This document shows, piece after piece, positions 32,101 through 35,100 of a stretch of 64,000 nt of DNA. The position numbers and the translations under genes were made by a program. The stretch's first letter is position 1, and each line of letters starts with the position of its first letter. Under the pieces are notes generated by a model, which searched no databases, was not told the origin of the DNA, and was given only the letters and a program-made list of their open reading frames with translations. Origin of the DNA: Albula goreensis (lineage: Eukaryota; Chordata; Actinopteri; Albuliformes; Albulidae); NCBI GenBank assembly GCA_022829145.1, contig CM040753.1, forward strand, positions 17,089,884-17,153,883, in the 5' to 3' direction.

Positions 32101-35100
32101 GTTCAGACAAGTTGGACAACAGGGGCATATCCTGTCCCAAGTTGGGTGCAGCATAGGGGGTCCTCACCTGGAAGTGTTTATGGACATGTTCCCTGACAAA
32201 GGAGGCGTTGACCACGGAGCCGTCCTGTGCATGGACCAGGATGACCTCCCCAGCCTCTGGAGGTCCAAGACGCAGGCAGTCCTGACTCTGCCAAATCAGA
32301 GGGGACACACCCAGGCCTAAGTCACATACGCGGCCACCCACTTTACACTAACACCCCTACAGTGAGCCAACACCTATGCTTTGTTCTAAGGAATATTAAA
32401 TAGTGATGTAAACTTAAAAACAAATACAAAATTTTTATAAAGCTCCGACCCACCTCTGGGAAGTTTTCAACAAAACATGTTACCAATCAAAAACATACTC
32501 ATAAGGAAGACTGGCTGGTGTAGGTAAGGTCAGTAAGTTCAGGACCATGGAGAGATTTTGTGCATGGAATGAGCAGGTCAAAGTCAATTTGTAACACTCA
32601 CCACCACATTCTCAGGATAGAGGTTGTCGCAGTAGGAGCCATCATCGTAGTTGACCTCATAGAAGGTCTGCGTTGCCATGCCAATGACAGTGCAGCGGTA
32701 ATGCCAGCCATCACGGTTCCGCCCAATCACCTGCTGGCCCAGGGACAGCTCGCGAGACCCTGGCCGTGTCTGTGCAGGAGAGGAGAGAGAGAACCAGACC
32801 TTAGACAGCAATGTGATGAAACAACACATTTGTTCAAATCGTTATGGTCTCTAGCCAGACCTACAAGGACTGTTCCTGTTATGTTCCCCTATTCATCAGA
32901 AAGATTTTTTTGACTCAAGACTCTAGCATCTCAACAACAGACAAAGGCTATGGGTTTGTCACAACCACCTACATCAACAGCTACTGCACTCATCGACAGC
33001 TGACAGCAAAAGAGATGCAATAAAGCGGCATACATGCAGGCCCCAGAGACATAAGGGGTTAATCAGTGAATGTGATGGTGGTCACAGCTCACCATCTTTT
33101 TTTTTTTTTTTTCAGGATCACACCAGCGAAGACACAGGGATGAGCCTGCCTTTATTGCGAAAAGATTCTTAGTATGAATTTCTAACAGGACTGCAGTTTT
33201 TACATTATATAGTTGAGGTTCTAGCATCAAAACACTTATGGAATGTGACCATGAAAATTACTGTACTTAACATATTAAAGAGAACTATGTAGGTTTCATG
33301 AATGTACTTTAAGTTCATGGTCACACAAACAAAATACATTTCACTGAAAAACTGGCACTAAAAATACCTAAAATGGAAGATCCAGTATGAGTCAGCCCAG
33401 GTGACTTGAAGAACTTTAACTTAACAATCTTGAAAAGTAAATAAGAGCAGAAGATGGGGAATGGGGTTGCTCACCACATTTTAGGGGTGCAGTTCACCTT
33501 TGACATCCAATTCAGGGCACAGTTACAAACACAAATTACATATCATATATCTCTATAGTCTGTGCACTTACCACCTTGTGAATGGGCATCTTGTGCTTGA
33601 GGCAGGTGACTGACACCACATAGGGCCAATCAGCAGGTTTCATGAGCACTCCGGCAATATGTGCACAGGTGACGTGGAAGGAGGTGGAGCAGTTCTCAAA
33701 GGAGCACTGGATGCAGGCCCCACGGATCTGCTTTGTGCTCTTGTGGCAGTAAACGCATTTCTACAAACACACAGGGACATAAAGAGTCTTTTAAAAGACA
33801 TGTCAACAAACAAATCCCCATTGTATGTCTTACTCTAATTAAGGGTTTCACTTTCCATCATAACTAAATAATGATGGAATGGAAGGAGCAGTGATAGGAC
33901 AAGTAACGAGTGGAAAGATAAAAATACAAATATATTATATTATGAAACCATATCAAAAAGGTGAAAAACAACGCAGTCTTTTTTCAAAATCAAAAGCACA
34001 ATTAATCAAATAGCTGCTTCGTGTGTAGCAAGTTTTCTGCCATTCTTTCAATACAGGAAGGTTTGAATCCATCCTGATACTACTGAAGTGATGTACGCAG
34101 GGACAGCTGCAACTCAGTATTAATTTGTTTCCCTTTAAAATGTTTTGTGGTGGAACTGATCTGAAAAACTACCCAGCAATTTATGCAAGGATGATAGATT
34201 CAGAACTGAGCAACAGACCCAATACTGGCACAAAATAATCTTGTCATTCCTGCCTTTTTTTCTTGAGAAGTGATTTCCTTATGGAAAGCCCAAAAAAGTT
34301 ACAAAGGATGGGTAGTTCACATGGGGTGAGCTTGAATAAGCTGCATGGGAATTAATCAGTACTTTCCTTAGTAAGCATTTCAGAATGTATCCCACGGTGC
34401 ACTGCAGCACGATTACTTTTAGGAGGACTCTGTTAATAATAATAATTCCCAAATAAATCAATACATATTATTTGTATATTGCAAATCTTTTGCTAAAGCT
34501 GCCAATAAAAATTCTTGCCTATCAGCTTTTCTTCCCCCTTGCTCTGATTTGTGTGCACACTGCAATTTCTCATTAGCGGGACGATCATGGCACGAGAGAG
34601 CATATCGGCGATGACACTGCAGGGAATATTCCGAAAAACCGTCCCAAATGCTTTCTTCTTCCCAGTCCCTTTAACTGTTCCTCATCCCATGCTCATTCTC
34701 TCTGAACCTCATCCTTTTCTCTCCCCCTCCTTTTCCTACTCCTTCCATTGTCCTCTCTCTCACTCCTTCTCTTTCTTGCTCCTGACAGCTCACACAACGC
34801 TGCCTTGCTGTGACCTGGGGAAATCAATAAAGAGAAAAATTCTTTATTAAATTGTCAATACTTCATTTTACCCCCCACCCCCCACACACATACACCACCA
34901 ACCCTGTGGGCTGGGAGGGGAAATGTACAACAGCTCTCAATATCTGGCCGTGCGCGGATATATTTCACCCCGCTGTTGTGCCTGCTGATTTAATATTCGA
35001 GAAGCGAGAATCATGAGACAGGGAGAGCGGATGGCAGAAAGAGTACAGCCAGATTTATTAGCATTATTTCCTTATTTATTTATTTGCTCTTTTTTTCCTG

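Follow-up and report, generated by a model that had tools for sequence, protein, structure and literature searches.

The double Tudor domains of human KDM4A and KDM4B are the closest described counterparts of the domain considered here. In KDM4A, the aromatic cage is formed by F932, W967, and Y973, and with the single mutation Y973A, the Kd for H3K23me3 climbs from 2.2 to 285 μM (available portion of PMC5114558). The same portion of that paper reports that the Y993A mutation in KDM4B abolishes binding to H3K23me3 nucleosomes; that the wild-type human KDM4B double Tudor prefers H3K23me3, with unmeasurable binding to H3K4me3; and that N931, S938, and N940 are residues that contact the H3K23me3 peptide. 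Simulations attribute -3.6 to -5.0 kcal/mol to W967 for four marks (PMC3064570, in the part available). Reading by the KDM4B Tudor is a proposed means of directing the enzyme to H3K23me3 in meiotic chromatin (PMC5114558) and to H4K20me2/3 at DNA breaks (PMC6410163), and the accessible text of the latter, a review, describes KDM4B as being recruited to H4K20me2/3 at sites of DNA damage. R919 in the Tudor of KDM4C matters for mitotic chromatin, from which KDM4A and KDM4B are absent (accessible part of PMC4041427); this has no bearing on the cage. A double Tudor with no aromatic box is described for ARID4A: according to the available part of PMC8038949, rather than binding methylated histone tails, it binds DNA at 10–20 μM, mainly via HTD-1.

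We analyzed a window of 64,000 nucleotides from Albula goreensis (contig CM040753.1, positions 17,089,884 to 17,153,883); coordinates below are positions within this window. On its minus strand, we identified twelve exons of a KDM4 gene, from 28689 to 60057. (Exon borders were set by eye.) All twelve exons have AG acceptors and all 11 internal exons have GT donors. The nine consecutive 3′ exons, from 43254 downward, encode 503 codons with no internal stop and end at a TAA. Because these nine exons splice into 503 open codons, we rejected the possibility that the visible part of the gene is a pseudogene; it is apparently a functional kdm4b. The gene is compact, and short CA repeats are numerous, features that fit a ray-finned fish.

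The domain order downstream of JmjC is that of KDM4B: a PHD finger (exons 43050-43254 and 39472-39548), an extended PHD finger (exons 39143-39198, 38721-38829, and 33572-33760), and the double Tudor. In the 503-residue chain, Pfam identifies PHD_2 (52.0 bits, with a cut-off of 28), zf-HC5HC2H_2 (122.5 bits, cut-off 27), and Tudor_2 (74.8 bits, cut-off 31.4, in two stretches). An exon that precedes the PHD exons (43679-43857) matches human KDM4B by tblastn; it was excluded from the 503-codon chain and from the Pfam query. Candidates for linker exons lie at 45 to 48 kb, and one of these contains nine consecutive lysine codons (47424-47450, minus strand). The last coding exon (28689-29183) has a Pro/Thr-rich tail and the TAA stop. 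A KDM4B-type C-terminus, for which the human motif is YVxFxESLLQ, is present close to the end of this exon. Ahead of the C-terminal motif and after AAKRPR, the Pro/Thr-rich stretch is 116 residues long, and its human KDM4B counterpart is 15 residues.

The C-terminal part of JmjC is encoded by exons 59920-60057 and 50765-50961, and its best match in the PDB is KDM4B. Over residues 1–88 or 1–89 of the query, KDM4B (4lxl) scores 188.5 bits, as compared to 172.9 bits for the best KDM4C and 165.5 bits for the best KDM4A; another KDM4B structure (7jm5) scores 207.8 bits, with an alignment that extends to residue 104. On these scores, we rejected an assignment of the gene to KDM4A or KDM4C. The initial annotation described the JmjC residues as intact, and we could confirm this for the last part of the domain, which is the portion inside the window. 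There, the stretch that holds the third metal ligand is identical to human KDM4B. The first two ligands, H188 and E190 (in the pattern HxE...H), would be encoded by an exon outside the window, within which human KDM4B residues 1–259, covering JmjN and the initial half of JmjC, had no credible match.

The double Tudor is complete and is encoded by three exons on the minus strand: the Tudor 1 exon (32602-32769), exon 13 (32168-32287; labelled W13 in the initial annotation), and exon 14 (29363-29455), which holds the end of Tudor 2. Its alignment to human KDM4A and KDM4B is ungapped (KDM4C was compared by position), and Pfam finds Tudor_2 in two stretches of the domain, with a whole-protein score of 80.5 and a cut-off of 31.4. 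Exon 13 encodes the middle of the domain. With a length of 120 bp (40 codons) and phase 0, it is preceded by ctgatttggcag (AG acceptor) and followed by gtgaggac (GT donor). All 40 residues align to the KDM4 double Tudor with no gaps, and the position, strand, and both splice sites given for this exon at the outset were correct. All of the fold motifs that had been listed are kept: LGPP, GE, DG, and the terminal Q. In the turn of Tudor 2 (exon 14), the sequence is VEFEDK, where human KDM4A, KDM4B, and KDM4C have VEFEDG.

Exon 13 lacks two aromatic residues of the cage. The codon at the position of KDM4A W967 is GCA (Ala, 32228-32230), and the codon at the position of Y973 is GTC (Val, 32210-32212), which confirms the two substitutions that drew attention to this exon. 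The cage numbering that was used agrees with the available part of PMC5114558. At all three positions (932, 967, and 973 in KDM4A numbering), human KDM4A, KDM4B, and KDM4C have Phe, Trp, and Tyr, and the Albula protein has Tyr, Ala, and Val. The double Tudor of Albula kdm4b thus does not have the aromatic cage F932/W967/Y973 of a methyl-lysine reader. Among the residues that contact H3K23me3, N931 and N940 are retained and S938 is Cys. D939 and D969, also peptide contacts, are retained as well, and D945 is Asn.

We considered whether the two codons might be sequencing or assembly errors. The gene is known here from a single assembly. On the other hand, going from TGG to GCA takes 3 base changes and going from TAC or TAT to GTC takes 2 or 3, so at least 5 base changes across two codons are involved and a single base-calling slip does not explain them. 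Given also the open reading frame and the clean splice sites, an artefact is extremely unlikely.

The explanation that we favor, and consider probable, is that this is an apparently functional kdm4b whose double Tudor has kept its fold and has lost its methyl-lysine pocket, most likely through relaxed constraint on the reader surface. With W967 replaced by Ala and Y973 by Val, the lone remaining cage aromatic would be the Tyr at F932, in the Tudor 1 exon. Since the published cage mutants lose binding, we infer that methyl-lysine reading is lost here as well, and reading by a double Tudor with neither W967 nor Y973 seems very unlikely. The retention of the peptide contacts N931, D939, N940, and D969 argues against this explanation. 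Loss of reading with retention of the fold, as the initial annotation proposed, is thus supported by analogy with the cage mutants. Its choice of H3K4me3 as a lost mark does not stand, as human KDM4B has no measurable binding to H3K4me3: the H3K4me3 and H4K20me marks that it named are those of KDM4A. The mark that is lost is most likely to be H3K23me3, and perhaps H4K20me2/3; the domain would bind neither with useful affinity. Targeting of the enzyme would then fall to the PHD and extended PHD fingers, to substrate recognition in JmjC, and to partner proteins.

A nearby alternative exon that carries the aromatics would also account for the sequence, if it were used instead and exon 13 were a minor form. 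Since exon 13 is 120 bp in phase 0, swapping or skipping it would not cause a frameshift. Both of the introns that flank exon 13 lie entirely within the window, and we searched the window in two ways, either of which could overlook an exon of very different length. First, we compared the human 4A and 4B domains to the window with tblastn, accepting E values of up to 100. This recovered exon 13 itself (E = 3e-6 with 4B and 3e-9 with 4A). The next matches to the exon 13 part of the query were self-matches of Tudor 1 (E = 0.013 and 0.56). Further matches at 2989-2912 (E = 0.23) and 33146-33066 (E = 0.64) are outside of the flanking introns, and neither has both cage residues. Second, we ran an ungapped profile scan of the whole window in six frames, keeping the best five hits per frame. 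Exon 13 scored 88.7, and the runner-up among these hits scored 14.7 and contained stops. No credible alternative exon emerged from either search of the window, and with no cage-bearing exon in either flanking intron, we think that there is very little chance that one is used.

Exon 13 is unusually diverged. Compared to human KDM4B, identity is 81/87 for the JmjC part, 90/118 for the extended PHD, and 51/72 for the PHD part. Within the double Tudor, identity is 33/48 for the Tudor 1 exon, 14/40 for exon 13, and 15/24 for the part of exon 14 that was compared; in local alignments, the values are 33/47, 15/37, and 21/31. Exon 13 is the most diverged of the three, and the contrast with the other two exons (14/40 versus 48/72) gives p = 0.0015 (Fisher test), which should be read as post hoc because exon 13 had been picked beforehand. 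Human KDM4A and KDM4B show no such contrast with each other (23/40 versus 47/71, p = 0.42). Comparing exon 13 in Albula and in human KDM4A, by their identity to human KDM4B (14/40 versus 23/40), gives p = 0.07.

It is less clear that the cage positions were singled out. Among the columns that are invariant in the human paralogues, 7/19 are changed in exon 13, and 5/22 and 4/17 are changed in the neighboring exons. Within exon 13, the chance that both cage positions would be among the changed columns is 0.12, which is not significant. This counts against our favored explanation, and statistical targeting of the cage positions is unsupported. Over the whole domain, the chance that all three cage residues would be changed is lower (p = 0.018), but this counts the mild change from Phe to Tyr and concerns positions chosen by the first annotation. 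Exon 13 also shares more residues with human KDM4A (20/40) than with human KDM4B (14/40), which is not so for either neighboring exon. With 4A as the outgroup, exon 13 has 10 changes that are private to this gene versus 7 that are private to human KDM4B, so its acceleration is not clearly one-sided. With 4C as the outgroup, the counts are 10 versus 3; over the whole domain, they are 21 versus 10 (4A) and 24 versus 5 (4C). Given the p value of 0.12, the closeness to 4A, and the 7 versus 10 private changes, relaxed constraint is the plain reading.

Alternatively, the divergence of exon 13 could be adaptive, with a rebuilt pocket that now binds DNA, an unmethylated histone, or a protein partner. 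The interdigitated double Tudor of ARID4A, a DNA binder without the aromatic box, provides a precedent (PMC8038949, in the part available). Exon 13 has diverged further from human KDM4B than human KDM4A has (14/40 versus 23/40 identical, as above), yet it retains its frame, its fold motifs, and both splice sites. However, by eye, exon 13 has not gained basic residues; drift in this exon also fits relaxed constraint; and DNA binding by ARID4A is mainly via HTD-1, not via the cage lobe HTD-2. We therefore view a rebuilt pocket as unlikely. The broader idea that a whole fish lineage has converted the KDM4B Tudor from a trimethyl-lysine pocket to another surface, with ARID4-like binding of nucleic acids or partners and an H3K9/H3K36 demethylase that is uncoupled from mark reading, is more speculative still, and we hold it to be doubtful.

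Fish genomes commonly carry duplicated genes, and loss of the function of one domain is a usual route for a duplicate. This gene could be a demethylase without a reader, with a second kdm4b elsewhere in the genome that keeps the cage. The window gives no hint of a second copy, and we regard this scenario as improbable. Downstream of kdm4b (positions 1-28000), there are 66 listed open frames of at least 75 codons, and none was recognized by eye as a known gene. No Rfam family reached its gathering score, and no repeat scored 200 or more in Tandem Repeats Finder. When genome contigs were scanned for fish relatives present as contaminants, there were 31 pattern matches and a single relative, at 2314-2520 of L001, which comes from a Clostridia MAG of goat rectum. 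This lies in a bacterial open frame of 1,126 codons, and we dismissed it as a chance match with the Tudor query, both having the seed FYEVNYDD.

Among the literature matches listed (titles and the openings of abstracts, in open-licence literature), none describes loss of the cage in a KDM4 protein, which is weak evidence that it is absent from print. Fish KDM4 Tudors are not mentioned in the available part of PMC2579438. In the accessible part of PMC11432338, the phrase “lacks the aromatic cage” is applied to the SN-like domain in eTudor proteins and has nothing to do with KDM4. If the cage change is general in fish kdm4b, it would be an apparently unremarked trait of the lineage; if it is private to this genome, it would be a single-genome curiosity. 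If our favored explanation of a lost pocket is correct, then this KDM4B would be a natural demonstration that the enzyme can dispense with the Tudor-reading step, and it would be a ready control for the share of targeting that depends on the reader. If the lineage-wide reading is correct, it would be a naturally occurring counterpart of the cage mutant made in the laboratory.

The human KDM4B double Tudor (PDB 4uc4 and 9h44) is orthologous to the Albula domain and has the same architecture, with 62 of 112 residues identical (33 + 14 + 15), and both have Asn at the positions of KDM4A N931 and N940. The two differ in the cage, which is F, W, and Y in human KDM4B, a reader of H3K23me3 according to the available part of PMC5114558, and Y, A, and V in Albula, where reading would be unexpected. 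The human KDM4A double Tudor (PDB 2qqr, 2gfa, and 5d6y), which also aligns without gaps and matches exon 13 at 20/40 residues, has the full cage and, in the portions of the literature available, reads H3K4me3, H4K20me3, and H3K23me3; Albula kdm4b has lost the W and the Y. The laboratory mutants KDM4A Y973A and KDM4B Y993A lack the same Tyr as Albula kdm4b, but they are engineered single mutants, whereas the Albula gene is natural and has lost the Trp as well. Finally, ARID4A and ARID4B share the interdigitated double Tudor fold class with KDM4. ARID4A belongs to a separate protein family, and the Albula double Tudor matches its sequence weakly (E = 0.59). Nevertheless, with no aromatic box and no binding of methylated histone tails in the accessible part of its description, the ARID4A double Tudor is the closest natural parallel that we found.
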